Part shown: in pieces, positions 35,816-53,236 of the stretch
Layout: the number at the start of each line of letters is the position of its first letter
Position numbering within the stretch: the stretch's first letter is position 1
Assembly: GCF_001665535.1 (NCBI RefSeq)
Contig: NZ_LZSQ01000040.1
Location: forward strand, 1 to 59,500
Direction: 5' to 3'
Length of the DNA stretch: 59,500 nucleotides
From: Mycobacterium sp. 852002-51961_SCH5331710
GTDB taxonomy: Bacteria > Actinomycetota > Actinomycetes > Mycobacteriales > Mycobacteriaceae
Program-made: the position numbers and the translations under genes
Notes under the pieces: model-generated
What the model was told of the DNA's origin: nothing
The model's input: the letters and a program-made list of their open reading frames with translations, nothing else
Databases searched by the model: none

Positions 35816-36491
35816 CGGCCTCGAGGAACGGTCCGTCGTGCGGGAGATCGACCGCTACGGCCTCCGCGTCACCGTCGACGGTCGCGATCGGCACCGTCGA
35901 TCGGATCGCTTCCACCGCCTCGTCGAACTCGCCGACCGGGTCCTCGAGCAATCGGCCGAGATGGCCGGCGGCGAATCCGCGCGGGTATTGCACGGTTTGA
36001 AGGGTCGAGCGATCCAGCGACGCGGTGACCACACCGCGCTCGTCGATGACCTTCACGCTGTCGGTGACCGGTTGCACCGGCAGCACGACGCTCGCTCCCC
36101 GCGTCAGGCCCTCGGCGACGCGCCTCGACAGGTCCGACGGCGTCAGCGGTTGCCGCACGTCGTACACGAGCACGTGTGACGCCGAAACCGGTTCGGCGAC
36201 AACCTTTTCGACCGCCGCCGCGAGACACCGCGCCCGGCTTGCCGATCCACCGACCCCCTCGACGTACACGGCGTCCAGTCCGTCGCGGGCGAGTGACGCG
36301 TACACCTCGCCGGCGATGGCTTCGGCGGCCGCCACGACGACCGCGGTGCAATCGGGGACCGCCTGAAGGCAGTCGTCCACGACGCGCGCCAGAGGCGATC
36401 GGCCCGCCACTCGTTGCAGCGATGCCGCCGCGCGTTCGTCGGCCGGCAGTGTCACGACCGCCGCGAGGCGTTGGCCGGGAAGCGCCGTCAC
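35796..36491 (-). CDS. Degenerate IspD-like nucleotidyltransferase fold protein, probably inactive
   Basis: A 231-residue protein with recognisable IspD relics: YDVRQPLTPSDLSRRV in place of DAARP, LPVQPVTDSVKVIDERGVV nearly intact, and QTVQYPRGF in place of QTPQGF. The N-terminal AAGxGxR loop and the following Lys are replaced by VVTLPADERAAASL, and the TDDxS and C-terminal NxKxT motifs are absent. Cytidylyltransferase activity is therefore unlikely. The GTG start at 36491 overlaps the TAG of the upstream Mce-associated gene by one base, so the protein is translationally coupled to two membrane proteins. A structural or regulatory role is the best guess. Confidence 0.72.
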   Translation of the reverse strand: MTALPGQRLAAVVTLPADERAAASLQRVAGRSPLARVVDDCLQAVPDCTAVVVAAAEAIAGEVYASLARDGLDAVYVEGVGGSASRARCLAAAVEKVVAEPVSASHVLVYDVRQPLTPSDLSRRVAEGLTRGASVVLPVQPVTDSVKVIDERGVVTASLDRSTLQTVQYPRGFAAGHLGRLLEDPVGEFDEAVEAIRSTVPIATVDGDAEAVAVDLPHDGPFLEAVIAARR

Positions 36492-37144
36492 TACACGGGG
36501 TCGAATTTGTTGATCAGCCAGTGCCCGTCGGATTTGGTCAGGCCGACCTTGACCGCGCTCGCGGCGAAGGCACCGTCGGGATTCTCCTTGCTGACCGTCG
36601 TCTGGTTGACGAACACCAACACGGTCGCGGTGTCGGGATGCATCTCGGCCACACCGGCCTCGACGACCGCCGCGCTGGTCTTGACCTGCTTCTCCTTGAC
36701 CGCCGGGGTCACGATCTGCTCGGTGAATTGGGTGTAGTAATTGAGGAAGTCGCCGGTGAGGTGCGATTTCGCATTCGTGAAATCCTGCTCCATCGAGTCC
36801 GGGGCGTACGACAACAGCGCCACGGTGCCCGACTTCGCCGCCTCCACCGCGACATTTTGTGCGTCGGCGTTGACCTGCTGGTCCGGTCGGTACTGGGAGA
36901 GGTACAACCAGGCGGCCACGCCTGCGGAGATCACGAGCAAAACCGTCAGCAGGATGGCGCCGAGATGCCGCCGCACGCCACCCCGAACTTTCGGACTGCT
37001 GTCCTCGGCGGGTTCCTCGTCGCCCTTCTCGGTGGCGTCCGGTTCCTCGGCGGCCGTCGACTCCGGTTCCACGGCCGTCGATTCCGGTTCGTCTGAGGCC
37101 GTGGTCTTCACGTCGGCCTCGTCGGTGTTGGCTTCGGTGCTCAC
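36491..37144 (-). CDS. Mce-associated membrane protein
   Basis: A 217-residue protein with an acidic, low-complexity N-terminus of about 55 residues (many Glu, Pro, Ser), one membrane span (HLGAILLTVLLVISAGVAAW near residue 60) and a C-terminal extracytoplasmic domain of the Mce-associated/VirB8-like kind (SAAVVEAGVAEMHPDTATVLV, then VGLTKSDGHWLINKFDPV). Proteins of this type (Mas/Omam) stabilise Mce lipid importers. It overlaps the upstream paralogue by four bases and the downstream IspD-like gene by one. The nearest visible mce operon is 14 kb away. Confidence 0.85.
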   Translation of the reverse strand: MSTEANTDEADVKTTASDEPESTAVEPESTAAEEPDATEKGDEEPAEDSSPKVRGGVRRHLGAILLTVLLVISAGVAAWLYLSQYRPDQQVNADAQNVAVEAAKSGTVALLSYAPDSMEQDFTNAKSHLTGDFLNYYTQFTEQIVTPAVKEKQVKTSAAVVEAGVAEMHPDTATVLVFVNQTTVSKENPDGAFAASAVKVGLTKSDGHWLINKFDPV

Positions 37145-38013
37145 GGTACGAACTCGACTTTCGACATCTTGATCTGGTCACCCTCGCGGACCAGGTCGAC
37201 CTTGAGGCGCCAGGAGCGCGGCTCCTGGTTGGCGCCCGCGGTGTTGGTGACCCGCGAGGTGGCCGACACCAGTGCGGTGGCGTTGTTGTCTGTCTTCGAC
37301 GTCAGCGCGGCGGTGTTGACGGTGACCTCGGTGACGACCTTGGACTCCTTGGCCACGTTCGTGAAGTCCTCGGCCTGTGCCTCGAAGTCCTGTTTGAACT
37401 GGCCGGTGGAGTTGTCGATGATGCGCTGCACGTCTTCCTTGGCCCGATTGAAGTCCAGCGACATCAGCGTCACGACACTCTGGCGGGCGGCCGCGGTGAA
37501 CTCGGCGGTCTCCTGCCGGTCCTGTTCCGCCAGCCGGTGCTGCCAGACCATGTAACCGCTCGCGGCGCCGAACGCGAGGATCAGGACGACGGCGACGACC
37601 GCGGCGACGATCTTCCACCGGATCCGCGGCATCCGCAGGCGGCGGCGCTTCGAGGTCTCGGCGTCCTCGGTCGCGACGGCGTCGTCACCGACCGCTCCAT
37701 CATCGGCGGCACCGTCGGCACTGTCGGCGGCTTCGGTATCGGCTTCGGCCGCGGTCTCCTCGGCCTCGACCACTTCCTCTTCGGCCCGTGCGGAACCTTT
37801 GGCCTCGGCAGCCTGCTTCCGCAACCGGATGGCCTTGGCCCGAGCACGGGCGGCGGCGGCGATCGCCTCCGCCTCGGCCGCTTCGGCCTCTGCCTCCTCG
37901 GCGAGGCGCAGCGCCTCGTCCGAGTCCGCCGACCGCTGCTCAGGGTCGTCCTGCGGCGGCTTTTCGACGCGGTCCGCGTCGATCACCGACTCGCGGCGCC
38001 TGAATGACGGCAC
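37141..38013 (-). CDS. Mce-associated membrane protein with charged coiled-coil N-terminus
   Basis: The 290-residue product has a long Ala/Glu/Lys/Arg-rich region (residues about 30-100) that is probably a coiled coil, an acidic linker, a membrane span near residue 135 (IVAAVVAVVLILAFGAASGY), and a C-terminal domain homologous in pattern to its downstream neighbour (VVTLMSLDFNRAKEDVQRII, then WRLKVDLVREGDQIKMSKVEF). GTG 38013 is preceded by a strong AAGGAGGG. It heads a three-gene overlapping operon. A GATAAT -10 element at 38053-38058 on the minus strand is likely its promoter. Confidence 0.85.
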   Translation of the reverse strand: MPSFRRRESVIDADRVEKPPQDDPEQRSADSDEALRLAEEAEAEAAEAEAIAAAARARAKAIRLRKQAAEAKGSARAEEEVVEAEETAAEADTEAADSADGAADDGAVGDDAVATEDAETSKRRRLRMPRIRWKIVAAVVAVVLILAFGAASGYMVWQHRLAEQDRQETAEFTAAARQSVVTLMSLDFNRAKEDVQRIIDNSTGQFKQDFEAQAEDFTNVAKESKVVTEVTVNTAALTSKTDNNATALVSATSRVTNTAGANQEPRSWRLKVDLVREGDQIKMSKVEFVP

Positions 38014-38030: not shown

Positions 38031-38084
38031 TTCACCACTTGTGAGAATGCCATTATCGATTTTTGAGTATCGCCGCGACGATAC
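38031..38084 (-). promoter_or_regulatory. Promoter/operator region of the Mce-associated operon
   Basis: On the minus strand GATAAT (38053-38058) is a good -10. Just downstream is TTCTC-N7-GTGAA (38031-38047), a one-mismatch copy of the TTCTC-N7-GAGAA repeat found at 42522-42538. The minus strand here reads CGATAATGGCATTCTC, differing in one base from CGATATTGGCATTCTC at the 42.5 kb promoter. A perfect GTATCG-N6-CGATAC palindrome lies upstream at 38067-38084. Confidence 0.55.
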
Positions 38085-38151
38085 CTGTGCAGGCACCGCC
38101 CGGCAAACATCGTCTTGCTGCGGAAATGCTATTTACGCGCTGTGCGGGAGC

Positions 38152-39618
38152 TCAGCGGCGATTGTCCTGAAGGCGGTCCTTCATCACCTTGCCGGTGGCG
38201 TTCAACGGCAGGCTGTCGAGGAACTCTACAGAGCGGGGCACCTTGAATCCCGCCATTCTTTCGCGGCTCCACGAAATGAGGTCCTCACCTGTGACGTCGT
38301 CGTGACCCCGGGTGCGCACGATGAACGCCTTGCCGACCTGGCCCAATCTATCGTCCGGCACCCCGATGACCGCCGCCTGCGCCACCGCGGGGTGCTCGAG
38401 CAGGAAACCCTCGATCTCGGCGGGATAGGCGTTGAAGCCGCCGACGATGAACATGTCCTTCTTGCGCCCGACAATCCTCAGGCGGCCCGAGTCGGTGAAT
38501 TCGCCGAGGTCGCCGGTGTGCAGGAAGCCGTCGGCGTCGATCGCGTCGGCCGTTGCAGCGGGGTCGTCGAGATAGCCCTGCATGACGTTGTAGCCGCGCA
38601 CCAGCACCTCGCCGTCGTCGGCGATGCGGACCTCCACGCCTTCGCACGGTAGGCCGGCCGTGGTCGCGACGTCCTCGGGGCTGTCCCCCGGACGGGACAG
38701 CGTCACGTTGCCGGCCTCGGTGAGCCCGTAGCCGGTCATCAGGCTGCCGAACGGCAACTCATCGCGGATCCGGCGGATCAGCTCGACCGGGATGTCGGCG
38801 GCCCCCGTCACGCCCGCCCGCAGCGATGCGAGCCGGTCCTTGTCGGCAACGGTCAGCAACGAGTGGTACAGCGTGGGCGGGCCGGGCAGCATCGTGATGC
38901 GTTCGCTCTCGATGAGCTCGACAACCAGGTCGACATCGAAAGCGGCGACGGGAAGCATCGTGGCGCCCCGCAGGAAGGACGCGACGAGCCCGGCCTTGAG
39001 CCCGAACGTGTGGAAGTACGGGTTGATCATCAGGTAGCGATCGCCTTCGCGCAGATCGGCGAGGGTCGCCCACTCCTCGTACGCGCGCAGCGTCTGGCGG
39101 TGGTTCATCATCGCGCCCTTGGGCCTGCCCGTGGTGCCCGAGGTGAAGATGACATCGGCGATGTCGGAGCCCGTCAGCTCGGCGACGCGGTCGAACGGTT
39201 TGCCGGAGGACAGGAAGCCCGACCCCAGGTCGATCACCGGCGCGTCCGTGGTCACCGAGTAGTCCAGGCCGAGGAAGTCCTTCTGAACCAGCACGGCCTT
39301 CGCGCCGCTGCGACCGATGATGTCGGCCGCCTCCTCAGGTTTGAACCGGGTGTTGACCGGGACCAGCACGCCGCCGGCGGCCAGCAGGCCGAAAGCCGCG
39401 ATGATCCAATCGGCGGAGTTGGGCGCCCAGATGGCGAGCCGATCGCCCTTGGCGATGCCGAGGTCGGCGAATGCGCCTGCCGCGCAACGGATCCGCTGCA
39501 CGGCCTCGGCGAAGGACAAGCGCAACGGACCGTCGACGATCGCTTCCGCGTCGCCGAAACGGTCCGCTGCGCTCAAGACCATCCCGGGGATGGTCTCCCA
39601 AGTGGGGTGCTGGGTCAC
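38152..39618 (-). CDS. FadD-type fatty-acyl-CoA synthetase (1)
   Basis: An ATP-dependent acyl-CoA ligase of 488 residues. The AMP-binding P-loop is DVIFTSGTTGRPKGAMMNHR (near residue 160), followed by GYGLTEAGNVTLS, the hinge motif GRKKDMFIVGGFNAYPAE and the C-terminal catalytic Lys in PLNATGKVMKDRL. The frame extends to 40338, but GTG 39618 is chosen: it overlaps the amidohydrolase stop by four bases (GTGA). It resembles the FadD3/FadD17 group that activates ring-fission or side-chain carboxylates rather than long fatty acids, but this is inference. It is co-transcribed with the amidohydrolase. Confidence 0.88.
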   Translation of the reverse strand: MTQHPTWETIPGMVLSAADRFGDAEAIVDGPLRLSFAEAVQRIRCAAGAFADLGIAKGDRLAIWAPNSADWIIAAFGLLAAGGVLVPVNTRFKPEEAADIIGRSGAKAVLVQKDFLGLDYSVTTDAPVIDLGSGFLSSGKPFDRVAELTGSDIADVIFTSGTTGRPKGAMMNHRQTLRAYEEWATLADLREGDRYLMINPYFHTFGLKAGLVASFLRGATMLPVAAFDVDLVVELIESERITMLPGPPTLYHSLLTVADKDRLASLRAGVTGAADIPVELIRRIRDELPFGSLMTGYGLTEAGNVTLSRPGDSPEDVATTAGLPCEGVEVRIADDGEVLVRGYNVMQGYLDDPAATADAIDADGFLHTGDLGEFTDSGRLRIVGRKKDMFIVGGFNAYPAEIEGFLLEHPAVAQAAVIGVPDDRLGQVGKAFIVRTRGHDDVTGEDLISWSRERMAGFKVPRSVEFLDSLPLNATGKVMKDRLQDNRR

Positions 39619-40805
39619 ACGGTGACGAGGCGACCCAGGTTGCCGCCCATGATCTTCGCCTGATCCTCGACCGACAGGTGCTCGAGTGCGGTGACGTAGT
39701 GGGTCGGCTCGGCCAGGCCCTCCGGATGCGGCCAGTCGGACCCGTAGAGGACCTGCTCCACGCCGATCAGGTTGATCAGGTCGTCGATGCCCTCCTCGTA
39801 GAAGGGGCTGACGTAGATGCGGTTCTTGATCTCCTCGATCGGGTTGCCCAGGAAGGCCTCGGGGGCCTTCTTGTACACCTCGGCCATGGAGTCCAGCAGC
39901 GGGAACATCCACTTCGAACCCGCTTCGACGATTCCGACCTTGAGCTTCGGGTGCCGGAACAGCGCGCCGTGAATCACCCACGAGGCCACCGCATCCTGGA
40001 TCGGGCGCCACTCGTTGAGGATCGACATCGCGTTGGTCTGGAACGGCAGCATCTCCTGCGCGACGCCGTCCCACTCCGAGGTGTAGCGGGAGTAACCGCT
40101 GTCGGAGGAGTGCATGCCGACGAACACGTCGTATTCGACGCACTTCTCCCAGAACGGATCGAACTCGGGCAGCGCGAACGACCGCGGGCCGCGGAATCCG
40201 GGCACCGGCGCCGGGCGGACGAGGATGGCGCGGGCACCGCGCTTGACCGCCCAGTCGAGCTCCTCGATCGCCTTCTCGACGATGGGCAGCGTGATGACCG
40301 GCGTGACGAAGATGCGGTTCTGGTAGTTGAAGCCCCACACCTCATCGAGCCACTGGTTCAGCGAGTGGATGATGACGTGGATCGCGACCGGATCGTCGCG
40401 CAGCCGCTCCTCGATGAGGCTGGCCAGCGTCGGGAACATCAGAGAGCGGTCCACGCCGAGCTCGTTCATGAGCTCCAGGCGCGGTCCGGGTTCGAAGAAC
40501 GCCGGGATCGAGCGCATCGGCTCACCGAACAGCTCGCGCTTGCTCTTGCCCTCGGGGTTGCCGAACTTGAAGTACTCCTCCCAGGCGCCCGGCTTGGCGA
40601 CGTGGGAGAACGTCGGGTTCGGGATGTAGTTACTGATCTGACCCTTGATGGCGATCTTGGTACGCCCGTTGACCTCGACGTACTGGACGACGTCCTTGTA
40701 CTCCTTGGGCAGGTACTTGGTCATCGCCTCCGGCGGCTCGTACAGGTGGTTGTCCGCGTCGAACAGCGGGAACGGTATGTCGACCCGATGTGACAGTTGC
40801 CCCAT
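39615..40805 (-). CDS. Amidohydrolase-2 family metal-dependent hydrolase
   Basis: A 396-residue TIM-barrel hydrolase of the amidohydrolase-2 family. The N-terminal motif FPLFDADNHLYEPPEAM replaces the usual HxH with DxDNH, as in many mycobacterial members. VFVGMHSSDSGYS and WVIHGALFRHPKLKVG supply histidines, and LYGSDWPHPEG supplies the C-terminal Asp. ATG 40805 is preferred to the upstream 40844 because AAGGAG precedes it. The family includes decarboxylases and C-C hydrolases (amidohydrolase-2/ACMSD-like). Here it precedes and overlaps a FadD gene, suggesting it generates an acid that FadD activates. Promoter TTGCGC-N18-TAGGAT lies upstream. Confidence 0.87.
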   Translation of the reverse strand: MGQLSHRVDIPFPLFDADNHLYEPPEAMTKYLPKEYKDVVQYVEVNGRTKIAIKGQISNYIPNPTFSHVAKPGAWEEYFKFGNPEGKSKRELFGEPMRSIPAFFEPGPRLELMNELGVDRSLMFPTLASLIEERLRDDPVAIHVIIHSLNQWLDEVWGFNYQNRIFVTPVITLPIVEKAIEELDWAVKRGARAILVRPAPVPGFRGPRSFALPEFDPFWEKCVEYDVFVGMHSSDSGYSRYTSEWDGVAQEMLPFQTNAMSILNEWRPIQDAVASWVIHGALFRHPKLKVGIVEAGSKWMFPLLDSMAEVYKKAPEAFLGNPIEEIKNRIYVSPFYEEGIDDLINLIGVEQVLYGSDWPHPEGLAEPTHYVTALEHLSVEDQAKIMGGNLGRLVTV

Positions 40806-40827
40806 GGAACACTCCTTTTCGTCTCGG

Positions 40828-40861
40828 GAGAATCCTATTCTCATTGGTGTCGGCTGCGCAA
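40828..40861 (-). promoter_or_regulatory. Promoter of the amidohydrolase-fadD operon with palindrome on the -10
   Basis: Minus strand: -35 TTGCGC (40856-40861), 18-bp spacer, -10 TAGGAT (40832-40837), about 27 bp before the ATG. The -10 lies inside the perfect palindrome GAGAATCCTATTCTC (40828-40842). The string GAGAATAGGAT here matches GAGAATAGCAT at the 42.5 kb promoter. Confidence 0.65.
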
Positions 40862-40895
40862 TGCGCCTTCGGCCAAATGGTTGTCGCCGGCGGAC

Positions 40896-42476
40896 TCAAT
40901 TCCGCGCTTTGGCCCGCACCTGCTCACGCAGGACGACCTTTTGCACCTTCCCGCTCGCGGTGCGCGGATAGTCCTGCCCCTCGGGCACCTCGTGCAGTTC
41001 CTCCGGCCACTTCTGAATCGCGACGCCGGCCCGCTTGAAGTGAGTACGCACCTCGTCGAGCGTCGGCATGGCGCCGCCCGCCCGGATGCGAAGCACCGCC
41101 GCGGCACGCTCACCGAGCCGGTCGTCGGGTGCTGCCACCACGACGGCTTCGGCGACGCTGGGCATGCCGAGCAGCACCTCTTCGACCTCGAGGGCGGAGA
41201 TGTTCTCTCCCCCTCGGATGATCACGTCGGCCTTGCGGTCGGTGATGGTCAGGTAGCCGTCCTCGTCGAGCACCCCGACATCACCGGTGTGGTACCAGCC
41301 GTCGTCGTCGAACGCGCGCCTGGTCATCTCGTCGTCGGTGTAACCCAGGCACAGATCCGGTCCGCGCGAAAGGATCTCGCCGTCCTCGGTCAGCTTGATC
41401 TCGACGCCGGGACGCGCATCGCCGTCGGTGTAGAGCCGCTTGTCCTCGGGGGCGGTGGGCCGCGAGCCGGTGATGGAGGGGTGCTCGGTGCTGCCGTAGG
41501 AGCGGAACACGAAGAACCCCATATCGGCGAGCCGGCGTGTCACCGCCGCGGGGACGGTGGATCCGCCGAGGCCGACGGTCGTGAACCGGGAGCGGTGTGC
41601 GTCGGTGCAATCGGGATGGTCGAGCAGGCTGGTGACGAAGTAGGGCGGCCCGCCGCCAATCGACATGCCTTCGGACTCCATGAGTTTGAGCACCTTGCCC
41701 GGATCCCACACGTCGCACAGATCGATCGGGGCGCCCTCGAGCACCGGGATGAGGAACGCGCCGAGCATGCCGATGAAGTGACCGATCGGCGTCGCGGTGA
41801 GCTGGCGTCCGCGGTCCTTGGGGTAGTTCTCCAGCAGCTGGCGAGTCTCGAAGCCCAGCGTCTGATGGCTGTGCACAACACCTTTCGGCTTACTCGTGGT
41901 GCCCGAGGTGAACGCGATCAGCGCCGGGCCCGCCGGGTCGGTGGCCAAGGTGCCCGACATCGGGGCGTCGTCGAGAAGATCGTCGAAGCTGTGGACATGG
42001 TCCTCGCGCAAGCGCTCGTCGGCCCCCACCAGCGCCACGATCGGGACGTCGGCGGCCAGGTCCGGCGCGAACACCATCCGGCCGAATTCCCGCGCGGTGA
42101 TGAGGACTTTCGGCCGCGCGGTCGCCAAGATGTGGGCGAGTTCCTTGCGGCCGTAGAAATGCACGATCGGCACCACGACCGCACCAAGGAACGCCGAAGC
42201 CCAGAAGGCAACGGCGGCCTCCATCCAATTGGGCAGCTGTAGCGCCACGACGTCGCCAGGGCCGACGCCTCGCTTGTGCAGACCCGCCGCGAGGCGACGG
42301 GCCCGCAGTTCGACATCGGCGAACGTGCCCGCGTACGGCCGGACGTCGGAGTGCACCCAGAAGCCGGTATCGGGGTTCTGGGCCAGGTGGCGGGCCAGCA
42401 GCTCACCGAGCGTGTCCGGGGTCCACCAACCTTCCTCCTCGTAGCGTTTGGTCAGCTCGACCGGGATGTTGCGCAT
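40896..42476 (-). CDS. FadD-type fatty-acyl-CoA synthetase (2)
   Basis: A 526-residue acyl-CoA ligase. The AMP-binding P-loop is LIAFTSGTTSKPKGVVHSHQ (near residue 190), with RSYGSTEHPSITGSR as the substrate/AMP motif, DGWYHTGDVGVLDEDGYLTI, the hinge TDRKADVIIRGGENISALEV and the catalytic Lys in RTASGKVQKVVLRE. Architecture is standard for medium-chain/cyclohexanecarboxyl-CoA-ligase-like enzymes. The start ATG 42476 is preceded by GGGGAG and by a textbook promoter whose spacer is the shared inverted repeat. It diverges from the enoyl-CoA hydratase-like gene and is separated from the amidohydrolase operon downstream by 90 bp. Confidence 0.9.
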   Translation of the reverse strand: MRNIPVELTKRYEEEGWWTPDTLGELLARHLAQNPDTGFWVHSDVRPYAGTFADVELRARRLAAGLHKRGVGPGDVVALQLPNWMEAAVAFWASAFLGAVVVPIVHFYGRKELAHILATARPKVLITAREFGRMVFAPDLAADVPIVALVGADERLREDHVHSFDDLLDDAPMSGTLATDPAGPALIAFTSGTTSKPKGVVHSHQTLGFETRQLLENYPKDRGRQLTATPIGHFIGMLGAFLIPVLEGAPIDLCDVWDPGKVLKLMESEGMSIGGGPPYFVTSLLDHPDCTDAHRSRFTTVGLGGSTVPAAVTRRLADMGFFVFRSYGSTEHPSITGSRPTAPEDKRLYTDGDARPGVEIKLTEDGEILSRGPDLCLGYTDDEMTRRAFDDDGWYHTGDVGVLDEDGYLTITDRKADVIIRGGENISALEVEEVLLGMPSVAEAVVVAAPDDRLGERAAAVLRIRAGGAMPTLDEVRTHFKRAGVAIQKWPEELHEVPEGQDYPRTASGKVQKVVLREQVRAKARN

Positions 42477-42515
42477 GGACTCCCCACACTCAGGCGGCTG
42501 CTCCGACTCGAGGCG

Positions 42516-42544
42516 ATGCTATTCTCTGAATCCGAGAATGCCAA
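42516..42544 (-). promoter_or_regulatory. fadD promoter TTGGCA-N17-TAGCAT whose spacer is a TTCTC-N7-GAGAA operator
   Basis: Minus strand: -35 TTGGCA (42539-42544), spacer 42522-42538, -10 TAGCAT (42516-42521). The 17-bp spacer is exactly the inverted repeat TTCTC-N7-GAGAA. On the plus strand AATATC at 42543-42548 could be the -10 for the divergent hydratase gene, putting the repeat across its -35 region. One bound regulator could control both directions. Confidence 0.7.
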
Positions 42545-42566
42545 TATCGCAAATGGAGAACGGTTG

Positions 42567-43283
42567 ATGGTAGACCTCGAGTTGGACGACGGCTTGGCGG
42601 TCATCACCATCGACCGGCCGCAGGCGCGCAACGCGATCGCGCCCGAGACCATGGAGCAGCTCGACGACGCGCTCGACCGCGCCGCGGGCGCAACCGCGCT
42701 GGTGGTCACGGGCGCCGGCGATCGGGCGTTCGTCTCCGGCGGTGATCTCAAACAGCTCGCGACCCTGCGCACCGAGGCCGACGCGGCCGCGATGGCGCGG
42801 CGGATGCGTGCGGTGTGCGATCGCATCGTCGCGTTCCCCGGCGTGACGATCGCCGTGCTCAACGGCCATGCGCTCGGCGGCGGGGCGGAGTTCGCGACCG
42901 CGGCCGATATCCGGCTGGCCGCCTCCGACATCAAGATCGGCTTCAACCAGGTGGCGCTCGAGATCATGCCTGCGTGGGGCGGCGCCGAGCGGCTGGTCGA
43001 GATCGTCGGCTACAGCAGGGCGTTGCTGTTGGCCGGTACCGGCACGATCCTGTCGGCCGACGAAGCCGAGCGCGTCGGCCTGATCGACCGGGTGCTCGCG
43101 CGGGAGACGTTCGACGACGACTGGCGCGCCGTCGCCCGCAAGCTTGCCCACCGGGCCGCCGGCGAGATCAAGCGTGTGATGAAGGGCGCCTCGACCGACG
43201 AGGCCGTGAACGCGTTCGCGCGGCTGTGGGTCTCCGACGAGCACTGGGCCGCCGCCGACAAGGCCATGAACCGCGGCAAGTAA
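42567..43283 (+). CDS. Enoyl-CoA hydratase/isomerase-like (crotonase) protein
   Basis: A 238-residue crotonase-fold protein. The oxyanion-hole strands are FVSGGDLKQL and NGHALGGGAEFATAADIRL. By hand alignment with rat mitochondrial hydratase, the first catalytic glutamate (GGGAE) is kept, but the second falls on Gln in GFNQVALEIMPAWGGAERL. It may therefore be an isomerase, hydrolase or lyase of the superfamily rather than a hydratase. ATG 42567 follows GGAGAA; the long upstream frame is not coding. It diverges from fadD and is a single-gene transcription unit facing the VOC-ADH-SDR operon. Confidence 0.85.
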   Translation: MVDLELDDGLAVITIDRPQARNAIAPETMEQLDDALDRAAGATALVVTGAGDRAFVSGGDLKQLATLRTEADAAAMARRMRAVCDRIVAFPGVTIAVLNGHALGGGAEFATAADIRLAASDIKIGFNQVALEIMPAWGGAERLVEIVGYSRALLLAGTGTILSADEAERVGLIDRVLARETFDDDWRAVARKLAHRAAGEIKRVMKGASTDEAVNAFARLWVSDEHWAAADKAMNRGK

Positions 43284-43292
43284 CTCCCGTCG

Positions 43293-43326
43293 CGCGAGCG
43301 CGCGTGTTTGCACACGACACGCCGCG
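43293..43326 (+). repeat. 34-bp dispersed intergenic repeat, second copy
   Basis: This segment matches the reverse complement of 18761-18794 at 32 of 34 positions, sharing GCACACGACACGCCGC. It begins 10 bp after the hydratase-like stop, and CGCACGCTCACGCG follows at about 43342, giving an imperfect dyad. The element fills the 83-bp gap between convergent genes and may act as a terminator. Confidence 0.75.
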
Positions 43327-43366
43327 CATTGTCAGCACTTTGCGCACGCTCACGCGCCGCGAAAGA

Positions 43367-43897
43367 TCAGCCGCCCAGAACCCGGATCGGATCGCTGCCG
43401 TCCCAGTTCGCCGCGGCGTCGCGCACGAACGACGCCATCCCGCTGGTGATCTCGGTGAGCTCCATGATCTCGATGATCTGCGCGACCTGCGCCCGGCCGG
43501 CCGGCGGCTCGACGTACGCGAAGCGGGTACCGACGTCCTCGCCGCCCGACCACACGACCGGCCAGCCCGCCTCGGCAACCGCGCGCATGGTGGCGTCGAA
43601 ATCGGTTGCCCAGTAGGCGAACTGATGGAATCCCTCACCGTGGGCGTCGAGGAACTCGGTGAAGACGCTCGGCGCCTCGCTCTGCTGCTGGATGAGCTCG
43701 AGCTGCATGTCGCCGCTGTTGCTCAGCGCCAGCGACTGGGTGATCTCACACGGCTCGCCGCGATAGCGCGCGGCCAGCGTCAGATCCCGCATGACGAACC
43801 AGGGCCCCACCCCCAGCTCGAGCCAGCCCGCGATCGCCCGGTCGATGTCGGTGACGACGTAGCCGATCTGGCGGATGGGGCCCGGAAGGACTTTCAC
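43367..43897 (-). CDS. VOC-family (glyoxalase-like) protein
   Basis: A 176-residue vicinal-oxygen-chelate protein with two beta-alpha-beta-beta-beta units: PIRQIGYVVTDIDRAIAGWL at the start and FHQFAYWATDFDATMRAVAE in the middle. Candidate metal ligands are the Glu in MQLELIQQQS and the His in GFHQFAY; the usual first His is replaced (RQIGYVV). It resembles the methylmalonyl-CoA-epimerase-like and dioxygenase-like branch. GTG 43897 overlaps the dehydrogenase stop by four bases (GTGA). It is the last gene of the SnoaL-SDR-ADH-VOC operon; the reaction is unknown. Confidence 0.82.
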   Translation of the reverse strand: MKVLPGPIRQIGYVVTDIDRAIAGWLELGVGPWFVMRDLTLAARYRGEPCEITQSLALSNSGDMQLELIQQQSEAPSVFTEFLDAHGEGFHQFAYWATDFDATMRAVAEAGWPVVWSGGEDVGTRFAYVEPPAGRAQVAQIIEIMELTEITSGMASFVRDAAANWDGSDPIRVLGG

Positions 43898-44916
43898 GGC
43901 GCCCCCGGATGGACCACGATGCGCGGCGGGCCCGACCCCCTGCGCGCCTGATCGATGGCCTCGGGCACCTCGTCGAGACCGATCGTCGCGCCGATGCTCG
44001 GCGTCGGATCGAGGCGACCGTCGACGACCGCGTCGAGGGTGCCGTACCAGTCCTGCGGATGAGGCCCGCCGCCGAACTGGATCGTCATGCCCTTGTGGGT
44101 GGCGGCCGTGCAGTCGATCGTGCCCGCGTCGTACCAGCCTCCCGCGGCGTGCACACGCGCGAGGAACTCGCAGTTGTCGACGATCGTCTGCATCAGACCG
44201 TTGGCGCCCACGCACTCGAAGATCACCTGCGTGGTCTGGAAACCCTTGGCGCGAAACGTCTCCCGCCACACGTCGTAGGGGTCGCGCTGCGCCGGGTTGA
44301 CCAGTACGTCGGCGCCGAACTTCGCCGCGTATCCGAGTCTGTCGTCGCTGTAGTCGGACACCACGATCGACTCGATGCCGCGCTTCTTCAGCGCGGCGAC
44401 GGTGGACAGCCCGATGGCGCCCGCGCCGATGACCAGCGGCAGATCACCGGGGCCGGCGCCCGAGCACCGGACGTAGTACTCCCCGACCGCGAACGCGTCG
44501 ACCAGCGCGACCGCGTCGTTCGGCGCGCCGTCGGGCACCCGTCGCGACATCATCTCCGAGACCACCATCAACTCGCCGAACGCGCCGTGGGCGTCGGGAT
44601 GGTGTCCGATCACCAGCGGTTCCTGACCCGCGCGGATCAGGATCGGCATGCTGGTCACCTTGGTTCCGACCGGGAAGTCGCCCGAGCAGTCGGGCCCGTG
44701 GCCCACGACCTCCCCGACGAACTCGTGGCCCATCACGGTGTCGCGGTCGGGATCCCACAGAAATCGCGGCGACGAGTTGGGATGGTCCATGTAGTGAACG
44801 TCGGATGCGCAGATCGCCGCCGACAGCGGCCTGATCAACAACTCCCCCGGCCCGGGCGACGGATCGGCCGTCTCCCGGACGTCGAGCTTGCCGTCGCGAA
44901 GCACCACCGCGCGCAT
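43894..44916 (-). CDS. Zinc-type medium-chain alcohol dehydrogenase
   Basis: A 340-residue MDR protein. The catalytic zinc site is visible in the Cys of AAICASDVHYMDHP and the GHEFVGEVVGHG motif; the cofactor loop is LVIGAGAIGLSTVAALKKRG, followed by VSDYSDDR, whose Asp favours NAD(H). The four-cysteine structural zinc lobe is missing: the segment after GTKVTSMPIL has no Cys cluster. That makes it an atypical member. It is one base downstream of the SDR stop and overlaps the VOC gene. It probably oxidises a secondary alcohol of the pathway substrate. Confidence 0.88.
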   Translation of the reverse strand: MRAVVLRDGKLDVRETADPSPGPGELLIRPLSAAICASDVHYMDHPNSSPRFLWDPDRDTVMGHEFVGEVVGHGPDCSGDFPVGTKVTSMPILIRAGQEPLVIGHHPDAHGAFGELMVVSEMMSRRVPDGAPNDAVALVDAFAVGEYYVRCSGAGPGDLPLVIGAGAIGLSTVAALKKRGIESIVVSDYSDDRLGYAAKFGADVLVNPAQRDPYDVWRETFRAKGFQTTQVIFECVGANGLMQTIVDNCEFLARVHAAGGWYDAGTIDCTAATHKGMTIQFGGGPHPQDWYGTLDAVVDGRLDPTPSIGATIGLDEVPEAIDQARRGSGPPRIVVHPGAP

Positions 44917-44917
44917 G

Positions 44918-45724
44918 TCAGACCTTCCTCTTGGCCGCGAAATCGGTTGAGGCGGCGCTGATCATCTCGACGAGTGTGCGCCGGTCGACCGTCCACACCT
45001 GCGAGGCCATGGCGCGATTGTTCTCGCCGACGACGTAGGTGGGTCCGTTTCCGATGTTCGCGATGATCTCGGCGGCGACGTCCTCGGAGCGCATCTGCGT
45101 CTGTGGGTCGTAGTCGACACCCATCCGCGCGAGCGCCGGGGTGTAGGTCATGCCGAGCGGAGTGCAGCACACGTCCACGCCGTGGGGACGCAACTCCGCC
45201 CACAGCCCCTCGGCGAACGTGTGCTGGAACGCCTTGACCGCGGAATACACCGCCAGCGTGGCCGACCCGGCCAGGCAGGCCAGCGACGCGACGATCACGA
45301 TGCCGCCGCGGCCGCGCTCGGCCATCGCCGGTCCGAAGTGTCGGGCCAAGGCCATCGGCCCGACGCAGTCCAGCGCGACCTGTTTGAGCGAGTACTCGAG
45401 GTCGTTCTCGAGAAACGTCGTCGTACGGTCGGAAGCGCCCGCGTTGTACACGATCAGCCCCACGTCGAGTCCGTCGGTCGCCGCCGCCACCTTCGCGACC
45501 ACGTCGGGATCGGTGAGGTCCTGCACGACGGCCTGCACCGCAACGCCGTGCCGCTCACGCGCCGCGGCGGCGACCTGGTTGAGCAGCGCTCCATTGCGTG
45601 CGATCAGCACGAGGTCGAGCCCACGCGACGCCAGCTGATCGGCCATCTCGGCGCCGATGCCCTCCGAGGCCCCGGCGATCGCCGCCCACGGTCCGTACCG
45701 CGCGGCGAAGTCGCCGATTGTCAC
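44918..45724 (-). CDS. Short-chain dehydrogenase/reductase
   Basis: A 268-residue classical SDR: cofactor loop AIAGASEGIGAEMADQLAS, VYNAGAS, and catalytic VASLACLAGSATLAVYSAVK with Ser, Tyr and Lys in the right spacing. The segment MSAASTDFAAKRKV ends the protein. GTG 45724 overlaps the SnoaL-like stop by four bases, and the frame's longer N-terminus, rich in His/Arg, is not coding. The substrate is unknown; co-transcription with an MDR dehydrogenase gives two oxidoreductases in one operon. Confidence 0.87.
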   Translation of the reverse strand: MTIGDFAARYGPWAAIAGASEGIGAEMADQLASRGLDLVLIARNGALLNQVAAAARERHGVAVQAVVQDLTDPDVVAKVAAATDGLDVGLIVYNAGASDRTTTFLENDLEYSLKQVALDCVGPMALARHFGPAMAERGRGGIVIVASLACLAGSATLAVYSAVKAFQHTFAEGLWAELRPHGVDVCCTPLGMTYTPALARMGVDYDPQTQMRSEDVAAEIIANIGNGPTYVVGENNRAMASQVWTVDRRTLVEMISAASTDFAAKRKV

Positions 45725-46140
45725 GGCGCGACGCCGGCCGCGCTCATCACCCGCGCGATGTTGGTGGTGCGCTTGGCGATTCGCCACCCGTCCGCGGTCC
45801 TGACGAGCTCGTCGTCGTAGTGACCGAGGGCATCGATCCAGCTTCCGCCGTCATCGGGCACCGCCTGCAGCACCGCGCGCACGTAGGACCGCGCAGTCGC
45901 CCGGTCGGCGTCCACGTCGACGACGATGTTGGAGATGCGGTGGTAGGTCTGCCCCATGCCGCCGTGGATCTGCTCCATCAACGTGGTGAAGGCGTCGGGA
46001 TCGGTGAAGGTCCCCAGGTCGCCGTAGTCGATGTCGACCTCGTCGGCCCAGCACGTGCGGAACAGCTTCCAGTCCTTGAAGTCGATCCCCGTTGCGTAGC
46101 GAATCAAGACCTCGGCGATCTGCGCTTTGTCGGCGTCCAC
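45721..46140 (-). CDS. SnoaL-like/nuclear transport factor 2-fold protein
   Basis: The protein has 139 residues with the SnoaL_4 pattern: IAEVLIRYATGIDFKDWKLF followed by RTCWADEVDIDYGDLGTF, and a C-terminal sheet ALGHYDDELVRTADGWRIAK. The Tyr/Asp of the IRYATGIDFKD segment and the buried His of QTYHRISNIV are typical pocket residues. These folds serve as isomerases, dehydratases or hydroxylases for polycyclic or terpenoid compounds. It starts the four-gene minus-strand operon with a GTG and faces the DUF35-thiolase pair across an 84-bp gap holding the shared inverted repeat. Confidence 0.85.
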   Translation of the reverse strand: MDADKAQIAEVLIRYATGIDFKDWKLFRTCWADEVDIDYGDLGTFTDPDAFTTLMEQIHGGMGQTYHRISNIVVDVDADRATARSYVRAVLQAVPDDGGSWIDALGHYDDELVRTADGWRIAKRTTNIARVMSAAGVAP

Positions 46141-46181
46141 ATCGGGGAGGCTAGCAGCGCGTTGACTCGTTGACGACCCTG

Positions 46182-46200
46182 GTTCTCTCTAGACGAGAAC
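46182..46200. promoter_or_regulatory. GTTCTC-N7-GAGAAC operator between the SnoaL operon and the DUF35 gene
   Basis: A perfect 6-bp inverted repeat with 7-bp spacer in the divergent gap. Its core TTCTC-N7-GAGAA is identical to the site at 42522-42538. On the plus strand GTTATC at 46211-46216 lies 8 bases before the GTG of the DUF35 gene, which has no ribosome binding site, suggesting a leaderless message. Confidence 0.65.
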
Positions 46201-46224
46201 GTCATTTCCAGTTATCGTCGGCGC

Positions 46225-46647
46225 GTGCCGACACAGCAAGTGGCGCTCGCGCCCGAAATCTCGACCTGGCCCGACGACAATCCGCAGCTGATCGGAAGCC
46301 GGTGCGGCGCGTGTGGCGCCACCGCCTTCCCGATTCAGCAGCGCTGCCCGCGGTGCAGCGCCGGTGACATGTCCGAGCTCAAGCTGCCCCGGCGCGGCAC
46401 CCTCGTCGCGTGGACGACGCAGGGCTTCCCGCCCGGCGCCCCGTACAAGGGTCCTACCGGGAACGACTTCGTGCCCTTCGGCGTCGGGCTGGTTCAGCTC
46501 GAGGACGTCATCCGCGTCGAGGGCCGGCTCACCGAGAACGACCCGGCCAAGCTCGAGTTCGGCATGGAGGTCGAGCTGACGATGGTGCCGTTCACCACCG
46601 ACGACGACGGCAACGAGGTCGTCACCTTCGCCTTCAAGCCCGTCTAG
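46225..46647 (+). CDS. DUF35 OB-fold protein with zinc ribbon, partner of the thiolase-like protein
   Basis: The 140-residue product has an N-terminal rubredoxin-like zinc ribbon with four cysteines (Cys27, Cys30, Cys41, Cys44 in RCGACGATAFPIQQRCPRC), followed by an OB-fold domain (RRGTLVAWTTQGFPP and the C-terminal VVTFAFKPV). DUF35 proteins bind acyl-CoA and form complexes with SCP-x-like thiolases, as in the Ltp2/ChsH2-DUF35 retro-aldolase of cholesterol side-chain degradation. It lies 16 bp upstream of such a thiolase. The GTG start has no clear ribosome binding site. Confidence 0.88.
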   Translation: MPTQQVALAPEISTWPDDNPQLIGSRCGACGATAFPIQQRCPRCSAGDMSELKLPRRGTLVAWTTQGFPPGAPYKGPTGNDFVPFGVGLVQLEDVIRVEGRLTENDPAKLEFGMEVELTMVPFTTDDDGNEVVTFAFKPV

Positions 46648-46663
46648 ACACAGGAGCATCGAG

Positions 46664-47809
46664 ATGACCAACGACGTGGCGATCATCGGCGTCGGGCTGC
46701 ACCCGTTCGGCCGATTCCCCAAGACCGCGATGGAGATGGGCGCCGAGGCCATCCAATCCGCGCTCACCGACGCCGGCCTGGAATGGAAGGACATCCAGTT
46801 CGGGTTCGGCGGCAGCTACGAGGTGTCCAACCCCGACGCGGTGACCCGGCTCGTCGGGCTGACGGGCATCACCTTCACCAACGTCTTCAACGCGTGCGCC
46901 ACCGCCGCCAGTGCGATCCAGCAGACCGCGGACACCATCCGGCTCGGCAAGTACGACATCGGCATCGCGATCGGCCTGGACAAGCATCCGCGCGGTGCGT
47001 TCACCGACGATCCGGCCAAACTCGCTCTGCCGCAGTGGTATGCCGAGAACGGTCAATTCGTCACCACGAAGTTCTTCGGGATGAAGGCCAACCACTACAT
47101 CCACAAGCACGGCATCTCGCAGGCCACGCTGGCCAAGGTGGCGGCCAAGAACTTCCGCAACGGTGCGTTGAACCCGAATGCGTTCCGGCGCAAGGCGATC
47201 CCCGAAGCGGAGATCCTGAACTCGACGGTGCTGAACTACCCGCTGACGCAGTACATGTTCTGTGCGCCGGACGAGGGCGCCGCGGCGGTGATCATGTGCC
47301 GCGGAGACATCGCGCACCGCTTCACCAAGAAGCCGGTGTACGTGCGCGCCACCGAGATTCGCACCCGGCGCTTCGGCGCCTATGAGGTCCATGCGACGTC
47401 GGCGCCGCTGGACGAGGACGCCTCCCCCACCGTCTACGCCGCCAAGGCGGCCTACGAGGCGGCGGGCCTGGGCCCGGAGGATGTCGACGTCGCGCAGCTT
47501 CAGGACACCGACGCGGGCGCCGAGGTCATTCACATGGCGGAGACCGGCCTGTGCGCCGACGGAGAGCAGGAGAAGCTGCTCGCCGACGGCGCCACCGAGA
47601 TCCACGGGTCGATGCCGATCAACACCGACGGCGGGCTGATCGCCAACGGTGAGCCGATCGGGGCTTCGGGACTGCGGCAGGTGCACGAACTCGTCCGGCA
47701 GCTGCGCGGTGAGGCGGGCGACCGTCAGGTCCCCGGTGAGCCCAAAGTCGGCCTGGCGCAGGTGTATGGCGCGCCCGGCACCGCGTCGGCGACGATCCTC
47801 GCGGTCTGA
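46664..47809 (+). CDS. Thiolase-superfamily lipid-transfer-protein-like enzyme lacking thiolytic histidines
   Basis: A 381-residue thiolase-fold protein, with ATG after AGGAGC. The nucleophile-position Cys78 is in FNACATAASA. The usual GHP motif reads NGEPIGASG (Glu near 330), and the NHEAFA motif reads QDTDAGAEVIH. Both histidines expected for thiolysis are thus absent, which points to a retro-aldol, retro-Claisen or non-thiolytic role as in Ltp2-type lyases. Gene pairing with a DUF35 protein supports that. Substrate is unknown; a branched or ring-bearing beta-hydroxy or beta-keto acyl-CoA fits the cluster. Confidence 0.88.
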   Translation: MTNDVAIIGVGLHPFGRFPKTAMEMGAEAIQSALTDAGLEWKDIQFGFGGSYEVSNPDAVTRLVGLTGITFTNVFNACATAASAIQQTADTIRLGKYDIGIAIGLDKHPRGAFTDDPAKLALPQWYAENGQFVTTKFFGMKANHYIHKHGISQATLAKVAAKNFRNGALNPNAFRRKAIPEAEILNSTVLNYPLTQYMFCAPDEGAAAVIMCRGDIAHRFTKKPVYVRATEIRTRRFGAYEVHATSAPLDEDASPTVYAAKAAYEAAGLGPEDVDVAQLQDTDAGAEVIHMAETGLCADGEQEKLLADGATEIHGSMPINTDGGLIANGEPIGASGLRQVHELVRQLRGEAGDRQVPGEPKVGLAQVYGAPGTASATILAV

Positions 47810-49008: not shown

Positions 49009-49030
49009 ATGCTAAGCAAGTGCTCAGCAT
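49009..49030. promoter_or_regulatory. 22-bp TetR-type operator between tetR and P450
   Basis: The sequence is A-TGCTAAGCA-AG-TGCTCAGCA-T: two TGCTNAGCA half-sites, each itself a near-palindrome, arranged symmetrically. It lies 82 bp upstream of tetR and 80 bp upstream of the P450 start, central in the divergent gap. It is the strongest palindrome in this gap. Confidence 0.78.
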
Positions 49031-51553: not shown

Positions 51554-53236
51554 TCAGGTCGGCATCAGGTCCTTCCACGACTTCGGCTCGTTGCTGGCAA
51601 GATTCGTCTGCCGCGGCAGCAAGCCATCGGGTGTCATGTACTGACCCGTCTCCGGATCGTAGTGGGCGACGGCCACCGACGGTCCCCCGGAAGCGTTGCC
51701 GCTGTGCGCACTTGGCGCAACGGGGGTCGCCCCACCCGCTGCAGGCGGCGCCGGGATCGGTGTGCCGTTGATCGAGTTGCCGGGCGGCGGAGGCGGTGCC
51801 ACCGGATCCTGGATCGGTGCCGGCGCAGCAGCGGGTGCCGACGCCGAGCCATGTGGGGTCCCGCCGGCCACCGGCAGCGGTGGCGGCGGCATACCCGGTG
51901 GCGTTCCCGCGGGGGCCGCACCGGGAGGCAGCGGAGTGCCCTCCACCGGTGCGTAAAGCCGCTCGGAGAAGTCCACCCGGTCGTCGGGCGGGATCCCCTG
52001 GGATATCAAATTCGGGTCGATCGGGTACGCACCGAGGGTGTGCTGACGCAAGGCCAACGGCTGATAGCCCTTGGGGTCGTTGCACAATTCGACGGTCGGC
52101 GCCCGTTTACCCGGATGCTCCATGCACGGGTAGTTGCGCGCACCACGCACCGCGATCGGCGAATCCTGCGGCAACTTGCAGTAGAGCCCGTCTGGGGTGT
52201 CGATGGACGTGGTGTCCTCCGGCGAGCGCCAACTCGACGGAGGCAGGAACCCGACGGTGCAGGGCGTTGGGTCGCTGATGGTGAGCGCGAAGTCGCCCAT
52301 CGGGAGGCCGGTGGGGTTGTTCTGCGGAAGCCCGAACGACTGCTGTGCGGCGATGATGCCCGGGAAGATGACCAGCAATTGCTCCAGCGACGGATTGTAG
52401 GTGAGCAGAGTCTGGCCCACCGTGGTGAGATTCGCCAGCAGGATCGGCAGCGTCGGCTTGATCTGGTTCAGCAGCGTCGAAACCTCCTGCGCGAAGCCGG
52501 GCCCCTGCTGAAGCAGCGTCCGGATCTGCGGATCGTTCTGCCGAAGCTGACCGGTCACTCCCGCAAGGCTTTTCGCCCAGGTGCGGATCTGCTCGGTGGT
52601 CTCGGCCTGCGATTCCAGTAGCGGCCCGCTGTCATCGATGAGCCCGCGGGTCTGGTCGGAGACGGTGTTGGCCTCGGCGCTGATCTTGGCCGCAGAGTCG
52701 ACCAGGGATTGGAAATCGGGGCCGGCCCCGTTGAACGCCTTGAACGACTCGTCGAGCAGGTCGGCGATCCGGTCCGACGGGATGCTTCCGATCAGTCGGT
52801 TGAGTCCCTCCAGTACCGGGCCGATCTCTTGCGGAATGATGGTGTCCGCGACAGGAATTCGCGACCCGTTCTGCAAGTAAGGCCCGGAGTCGGTACGCGG
52901 CCGCAGGTCGACGTATTGCTCGCCGACGGCGGAGACACTGCGCACTTCGGCCTGTAAATCTGCGGGAACCTTCGGCGATGTGTCGAGCGACAGCGTGGCC
53001 TCGGCCCCGTTTTCGGTCAGGGCCACGTCGGTGACCTTGCCGATCTGCACACCGCGGTACGTGACGTTGCCGAAGCGATAGAGGCCACCCGCGGCGGGCA
53101 GTTCCATCTTCACCGTCAACCGGCCGACGCCGAGCAAGGTCGGCACCTGCATGTAGACGAACAGCATCACCGTCACACCCACGATCGACGCGATCGTGAA
53201 GATGATCAACTGGTTTCGTACGAAGCGCGTCAGCAT
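51554..53236 (-). CDS. mceF: Mce-family protein, MceF position
   Basis: Last gene of the mce operon, 560 residues. An N-terminal membrane helix (LIIFTIASIVGVTVMLFVYM) is followed by the MCE domain (TVKMELPAAGGLYRFGNVTY, then RGVQIGKVTDVAL), a long helical region and a very proline/alanine-rich tail (residues about 420-520) ending in a short conserved block (GQYMTPDGLLPRQTNLAS then PKSWKDLMPT). Mce proteins form a hexameric tunnel carrying lipids across the cell wall to the YrbE permease. Its ATG overlaps the mceE stop by one base (TGATG). Confidence 0.93.
   Translation of the reverse strand: MLTRFVRNQLIIFTIASIVGVTVMLFVYMQVPTLLGVGRLTVKMELPAAGGLYRFGNVTYRGVQIGKVTDVALTENGAEATLSLDTSPKVPADLQAEVRSVSAVGEQYVDLRPRTDSGPYLQNGSRIPVADTIIPQEIGPVLEGLNRLIGSIPSDRIADLLDESFKAFNGAGPDFQSLVDSAAKISAEANTVSDQTRGLIDDSGPLLESQAETTEQIRTWAKSLAGVTGQLRQNDPQIRTLLQQGPGFAQEVSTLLNQIKPTLPILLANLTTVGQTLLTYNPSLEQLLVIFPGIIAAQQSFGLPQNNPTGLPMGDFALTISDPTPCTVGFLPPSSWRSPEDTTSIDTPDGLYCKLPQDSPIAVRGARNYPCMEHPGKRAPTVELCNDPKGYQPLALRQHTLGAYPIDPNLISQGIPPDDRVDFSERLYAPVEGTPLPPGAAPAGTPPGMPPPPLPVAGGTPHGSASAPAAAPAPIQDPVAPPPPPGNSINGTPIPAPPAAGGATPVAPSAHSGNASGGPSVAVAHYDPETGQYMTPDGLLPRQTNLASNEPKSWKDLMPT

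Follow-up and report, generated by a model that had tools for sequence, protein, structure and literature searches.

The stretch of DNA analysed here, referred to as the window, comprises 59,500 nucleotides of the genome of Mycobacterium sp. 852002-51961_SCH5331710 (contig NZ_LZSQ01000040.1, positions 1 to 59,500 of the forward strand). Between 36 and 47.8 kb it carries a catabolic cluster with acyl-CoA ligases, an amidohydrolase, an enoyl-CoA hydratase, a ChsH2-type protein and a pair of Mce-associated genes, followed by a TetR gene at 48.3 kb and by mceA-F genes (Table 1). Four promoters of the cluster share the palindrome GAGAAT-N3-ATTCTC, which, judged from the sequences, is very probably bound by P0001, a TetR repressor encoded on contig C61 that would hold a regulon for lipid import and degradation off until an intermediate of the pathway releases it.

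The core operator and its sites in the window

The initial annotation had assigned to these upstream regions a TTCTC-N7-GAGAA repeat, with exact copies at 42522-42538 and 46183-46199, one-mismatch copies at 38031-38047 and 40816-40832, an exact GAGAAT-N3-ATTCTC palindrome at 40828-40842 and, at 42.5 kb, a TTGGCA-N17-TAGCAT promoter whose complete 17-bp spacer is the repeat. All of these sites were found where they had been placed. On this basis a single dedicated regulator had been proposed to govern the Mce-associated operon as well as the degradation genes, an idea that is supported by the matrix ranking and by the orthologous sites described below, although the core motif proves to be another one.

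A 27-bp matrix, trained on 173 unique sites from P0001 loci only, was run over the whole 59.5-kb window. Its four best sites (scores in Table 1; the fifth reaches 1.5) are exactly the four promoters of the initial annotation and none besides, and windows simulated from first-order composition held 0.75 sites scoring at least 6 per window, versus the four observed. The predicted core operator is GAGAAT-N3-ATTCTC. Comparison of the sites favours a reading of TTCTC-N7-GAGAA in which two such dyads lie 22 bp apart and their inner halves abut. For the one-mismatch N7 copies at 38031 and 40816, the best reading is that each represents the right half of an N3 palindrome, located at 38043-38057 and 40828-40842, respectively. 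Across a set of 97 distinct N7 sites, the sequence where this 22-bp register would place an outer half-site agrees at 3.07 of 6 positions, versus 1.1-2.4 at other offsets.

Table 1. Genes and operator sites of the window
Feature	Position	Strand	Basis or remark
Second gene of Mce-associated pair	36491..37144	-	profile search without match; label from position
Mce-associated (Mas-like), first of same-strand pair	37141..38013	-	without Pfam or NCBIfam match; label from sequence style and position
Operator GAGAATGCCATTATC	38043..38057	.	score 18.3, window rank 2; 29 bp from Mce-associated gene start
FadD3-family acyl-CoA ligase	38152..39582	-	NF005801, 741.6 bits (cut-off 657)
Amidohydrolase (Amidohydro_2)	39615..40805	-	PF04909
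Operator GAGAATCCTATTCTC (- strand GAGAATAGGATTCTC)	40828..40842	.	exact palindrome; score 26.2, window rank 1
Second acyl-CoA ligase	40896..42476	-	PF00501
Left degenerate dyad GGCGATGCTATTCTC of tandem operator	42512..42526	.	3 mismatches; score -1.2; register backed by outer-half enrichment
TTCTC-N7-GAGAA, inner halves of both dyads	42522..42538	.	exact; fills 17-bp promoter spacer
Right dyad GAGAATGCCAATATC	42534..42548	.	score 9.1, window rank 3
Enoyl-CoA hydratase	42567..43283	+	PF00378
Gene run SnoaL - SDR - zinc ADH - VOC (glyoxalase)	43367..46140	-	domain matches
TTCTC-N7-GAGAA	46183..46199	.	exact; between divergent SnoaL-SDR-ADH-VOC and ChsH2-like/thiolase units
Right dyad of 46.2-kb site, GAGAACGTCATTTCC	46195..46209	.	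score 7.3, window rank 4
ChsH2-type OB protein and thiolase-fold protein	46225..47809	+	PF01796, PF12172, PF22691
mceA-F genes	51554..59368	-	PF02470/PF11887 in three of six; synteny with relatives

Distribution in the genome and conservation in orthologous clusters

The genome scanned amounts to 5.55 Mb in 134 contigs; genes outside annotated families were delimited by a codon-score caller, and the intergenic and inside-gene labels depend on such calls. The exact TTCTC-N7-GAGAA repeat occurs in ten places, four of them intergenic, and the bare form on which the initial annotation relied is not promoter-specific, because the other six copies lie inside genes. GAGAAT-N3-ATTCTC occurs exactly in seven places, all seven intergenic, and in 66 places at up to two mismatches versus 6 for a reversed control; it is, genome-wide, the more selective motif of the two. 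The extended form ATTCTC-N7-GAGAAT has its sole exact copy of this genome at 42521-42539.

As a separate observation, one exact TTCTC-N7-GAGAA copy (G000:C55:84414, L032:6415) lies in a divergent intergenic region off the examined regulon-island contigs, between two genes whose products both resemble F420-dependent (luciferase-type) oxidoreductases. An IclR gene adjoins another site, C90:6688.

In clusters orthologous to that of the window, counted without homologues below 55% identity (except the Mce-associated and small secreted proteins) and without alignments beginning past residue 25, the N3 operator at a matrix score of at least 7 lies upstream of the amidohydrolase gene in 27 of 29 cases, the exceptions being L201 (genome G030) and the contig-edge copy L204; among 435 coding windows used as controls, one reaches this score. 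A motif not conserved in orthologous clusters had been named as a refutation; the N7 repeat, allowing a single mismatch, precedes the enoyl-CoA hydratase gene in 23 of 23 clusters and occurs in none of the 435 controls. The region upstream of the ChsH2 gene scores at least 5 in five of five relatives, three of which hold the exact N7 form. For the Mce-associated gene the orthologue table keeps just two rows, and its site was therefore judged by gene-order comparison, in which four of seven relatives sharing the gene order have a copy, perfect or with a single mismatch, between the FadD and Mce-associated genes. In the same table, the L186 row for the P450 is an edge artefact. The conserved element at 38.0 and 40.8 kb is, on these alignments, the N3 palindrome, and the N7 form is the one conserved at 42.5 kb.

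Counts within the window are less telling. With up to two mismatches, TTCTC-N7-GAGAA gives 21 matches where 13.83 would be expected, a count attained in 2 of 100 shuffles, so that the excess over shuffled sequence is there, if modest. Such a mild margin would suit the view that AT-rich promoters simply look alike in a GC-rich genome. This view is refuted by the conservation of the sites, by the reversed-pattern controls and by the co-occurrence with P0001, and its probability is close to negligible; it is conservation, and not the in-window counts, that decides, on sequence comparison, that the motif is real.

The candidate regulator P0001

P0001 is a TetR protein of 216 amino acids (contig C61, L026:9602-10252). 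An exact operator separates its gene from that of an acyl-CoA dehydrogenase, transcribed divergently. Past the P0001 gene, three further sites precede a gene for a P450. The protein has a single match to the TetR_N helix-turn-helix domain (PF00440, 31.6 bits, cut-off 24), and its predicted structure, with a predicted local distance difference test score (pLDDT) of 84.9 and a predicted template modelling score (pTM) of 0.74, shows an all-helical TetR fold. The structure search was topped by TetR proteins, with YvdT, EthR2 and FadR best-ranked and KstR2 (4w97) also present. Residues 1-215 are identical in Mycolicibacterium novocastrense and two Mycobacterium strains. The gene run following P0001 also contains an EcKL (ecdysteroid-kinase-like) gene at L026:12583-13653.

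Among the P0001 loci, which are the best 80 of 404 relatives from named genomes and all mycobacterial by title, an exact operator is present 128-149 bp upstream of the P0001 start in 80 of 80; together these loci hold 204 sites with at most one mismatch in 1,575,615 bases, versus none for the reversed pattern. A sample of 151 genomes from the family, 34 of which have a P0001 orthologue (called at 298 bits or more), agrees with this: a site scoring at least 22 precedes P0001 in 29 of 30 loci, including 19 of the 20 outside the genus, the exception being G095. In 20 of 29 genomes a single contig holds both P0001 and the cluster, at a distance of 25-127 kb.

Exact operators are found in 33 of the 34 family genomes with P0001 (164 places in total, one of them, in G144, a contig-end repeat) versus 8 of the 117 without it, at one site each (Fisher p 1.4e-24 over the 151 genomes, with kinship ignored). 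Since related genomes are not independent, a within-genus permutation was also used: in the five genera that vary, P0001 genomes hold 87 sites, a number reached by 0 of 100000 permutations. In a further sample of 98 genomes from the genus, 10 of them also in the family sample, sites occur in 80 of the 82 genomes with P0001 versus 1 of 16 without. The reversed pattern is absent from the 151 family genomes and present in one place (G235) in the 98 genus genomes. Taken with the loci, these comparisons make P0001 the best candidate for the regulator of the operator-bearing promoters.

The N7 repeat might instead be a separate element for a second protein, such as a paralogue of P0001, with P0001 reading the N3 palindrome only. 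Its everted spacing is unlike that of the palindrome and, in G021, G093 and G106, ATTCTC-N7-GAGAAT lies about 100 bp from a paralogue 58-59% identical to P0001. Yet this extended N7 form is found in 19 of the 34 P0001 genomes versus 1 of the 117 others, the outer half-sites are enriched in the 22-bp register, and most P0001 genomes, that of the window included, have no such close paralogue among the matches listed. A second protein is thus unlikely, and the N7 repeat is better seen as part of a tandem operator of P0001.

In the genome of the window, a TetR gene whose product is 37% identical to P0001 adjoins an amidohydrolase 56% identical to that of the window (G000:C119:46797-48700). The operator was not found in this stretch at up to one mismatch, and the two genes are possibly a paralogous system.

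The TetR gene at 48.3 kb

The initial annotation had suggested a knockout of the TetR gene at 48.3 kb as a check on the regulator. This is the nearest regulator gene, its product has a TetR_N domain, and it is divergent from a CYP150-like P450 gene. The operator, however, is found upstream of it in none of 11 orthologous loci; the region between the TetR and P450 genes instead holds a palindrome, TGCTnAGCAnnTGCTnAGCA, in 10 of the 11 and in the window. The copy of the window (49010-49029, TGCTAAGCAAGTGCTCAGCA) is the only one in the genome at up to one mismatch, and is likely to be the private operator of the 48.3-kb TetR. In addition, many clusters retain the operator at the amidohydrolase gene without an orthologue of this TetR in the stretch examined, as in L188-L196. 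Control of the four promoters by this protein is highly improbable, and since it appears to be a separate regulator, its knockout would probably miss the regulon.

Extent of the predicted regulon and the mce run

The regulon predicted for P0001 is wider than the window and includes the head of a run ending in an mce operon. Its extent is best seen in G144, a close relative assembled as one contig, with a P0001 99% identical to that of the window and about 97 kb from the window-type cluster. After removal of four duplicates from overlapping contig ends, the 27 site rows of this genome give 23 distinct sites in 224 kb, two of them inside genes, and 13 intergenic regions with a score of at least 17 or an exact N7 repeat span about 146 kb. 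Contig C1 of G144 itself carries about 26 kb repeated at both ends, probably an untrimmed circularisation overlap.

In G144, a pair of operators precedes a run of genes that all lie on one strand, no more than 139 bp apart, in the order aldehyde dehydrogenase (ALDH), CoA transferase, OB/HMGS-like, thiolase, the MlaE-type permeases yrbEA and yrbEB, and six mce genes. Operators lie upstream of this ALDH-CaiB run in 28 of 29 genomes, with at least two in 26 of the 29, and in eight genus members the run continues, without a change of strand, into yrbEA-yrbEB-mceA/B/F. In the genome of the window, contig C128 breaks off in yrbEA, and this gene order makes it probable that an operator-headed run starting there continues in the mceA-F genes at 51.6-59.4 kb.

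The genes of the regulon encode a Rieske oxygenase, an Amidohydro_2 protein, an acyl-CoA dehydrogenase, a P450, a mycofactocin-type SDR, a FadD3-family ligase, a ChsH2-type OB protein and a thiolase. As a candidate substrate, a polycyclic, steroid- or terpenoid-like (isoprenoid) lipid would suit this set of enzymes best. The P450 divergent from the 48.3-kb TetR, which is CYP150A6-like (PDB 6dcd, 682 bits), and the EcKL gene behind P0001 are at most suggestive of the substrate.

Promoter overlap and proposed mechanism

Mycobacterial -10 elements have the form TAnnnT. For the amidohydrolase-FadD unit, the predicted -10 is a TAGGAT covered by the operator at 40828-40842, and the operator at 38043-38057 includes a -10-like GATAAT on the - strand. 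At 42.5 kb, the acyl-CoA ligase gene has a predicted -10 TAGCAT (- strand, 42516-42521), which the left dyad overlaps, and a predicted -35 TTGGCA (- strand, 42539-42544), which the right dyad overlaps. The same placement recurs in relatives: TAnnnT is found at the operator centre in 28 of 28 amidohydrolase promoters, window included, versus 193 among the 408 oriented sites from the P0001 loci. In 19 of 26 regions, again including the window, the FadD2 promoter has the form TTGG(C/A)A-N17-TAnnnT (more loosely TnGGnA-N17-TAnnnT), its spacer being the N7 repeat.

Because the operators overlap predicted -10 and -35 hexamers, repression by occlusion is proposed. P0001 would bind the operator as a dimer, and at N7 sites two dimers would occupy neighbouring dyads on the -35 and -10 elements, separated by 22 bp (two helical turns), and so block RNA polymerase. 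P0001 would also repress its own gene. The inducer could be a CoA thioester produced by the acyl-CoA ligases of the regulon, as for the structurally similar FadR proteins; this is plausible by analogy, since the fold neighbours of P0001 include EthR2, KstR2 and the acyl-CoA-responsive FadR proteins. The sign of the control is read from placement, and P0001 could thus be an activator or a dual regulator. In all 28 amidohydrolase promoters the operator covers the -10, and in 19 of 26 FadD2 promoters it covers the -35 and -10; since this placement is expected to block the polymerase, such a role is very unlikely, and P0001 is better regarded as a repressor.

Several observations weigh against a single repressor acting in this way. 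Ten of 20 simulated windows hold some site scoring at least 7, and the dyads at 42.5 and 46.2 kb reach only 9.1 and 7.3, so that these two need the support of conservation. The left dyad at 42512 has a negative score (-1.2), the outer halves of the N7 sites match only 3.07 of 6 positions (other offsets 1.1-2.4), and the FadD2 promoter architecture is missing in 7 of 26 regions. The site at the Mce-associated promoter is absent in three of the seven relatives with the same gene order and, outside the genus, mce genes behind the ALDH run were not found in the stretches examined. P0001 occurs without an exact site in G095, G194 and G223, and nine P0001-free genomes carry one exact site each; the co-occurrence could also come from another regulator always co-inherited with P0001. 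Finally, G030 has P0001 and six exact operators, none of them at the amidohydrolase or ALDH promoters, pointing to either a rewired regulon or a diverged operator.

Relation to known systems

KstR and KstR2 (for KstR2, PMC6593523) are mycobacterial TetR repressors of sterol uptake and catabolism, with palindromic operators over genes for acyl-CoA ligases, hydratases and P450s and, in the case of KstR, over an mce importer. P0001 resembles them in being a TetR protein with a palindromic operator over similar kinds of genes, and KstR2 (4w97) is among its fold neighbours. The match of KstR (5ua2) to P0001 is, however, distant (E 0.0095), and P0001 has no NCBIfam model above cut-off, which rules out that it is KstR or KstR2 itself; its operator and matrix are presumably also unlike the motifs of both. 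FadR-type TetR proteins from Bacillus and Thermus, which respond to acyl-CoA, are among the best structural neighbours, but they share only about 15-23% identity with P0001 and have other targets. MftR was also ruled out: the best score at the mftA promoter is -8.5 (L226 1-900, including 437 bp upstream of mftA), and no MftR model is among the NCBIfam matches of P0001.

A predicted TetR regulon of 14 operons, which may or may not coincide with the present one, has been proposed for Mycobacterium sp. VKM Ac-1817D from a comparative motif search and assigned to 'motif X' and an Rv0767c orthologue. There too, P450, dehydrogenase and SDR genes are preceded by a palindromic motif (PMC6593523). The genes named there (steroid isomerase, cyp125 and others) are, compared by their descriptions, unlike the Rieske oxygenase, amidohydrolase and acyl-CoA dehydrogenase genes found here (PMC6593523). 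The chromatin immunoprecipitation sites of Rv0767c are described in the text available as rich in GAC/GTC (PMC10312376). An orthologue of Rv0767c, sought through P450 neighbours, was not located in the genome of the window. Mce3R is likewise a TetR regulator tied to an mce operon, but it is described, in the portion of the report consulted, as a double TetR protein binding a non-palindromic sequence (PMC11667970), whereas P0001 has 216 amino acids, one TetR_N match and a palindromic site.

No description of the operator strings tried was found in the literature searched, and the regulon is probably a new one of a known TetR-repressor kind. On balance, it seems probable that an undescribed regulon spans the genus and reaches into further genera of the family. 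A single TetR repressor would there control its own gene together with no fewer than 13 promoter regions of a catabolic island of about 146 kb; within the genus, its targets would include a dedicated importer of the mce type for a polycyclic or isoprenoid lipid. At key promoters two dimers would lie next to each other on the -35 and -10, their abutting half-sites filling the 17-bp spacer exactly. A loose motif thereby becomes a regulon that can be tested, with a specified gene for its proposed regulator, carried by most sampled members of the genus (82 of 98). To our knowledge, few regulators or substrates have been assigned to mce importers beyond mce1-4, one of which would here be tied to a specific set of enzymes; a compound releasing P0001 would thus be a pointer to its substrate.

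Elsewhere in the window, a 3073-aa open reading frame on the - strand (19220-28441), with Fas1-type, MaoC and ketoacyl-synthase domains, corresponds to a type I fatty acid synthase.

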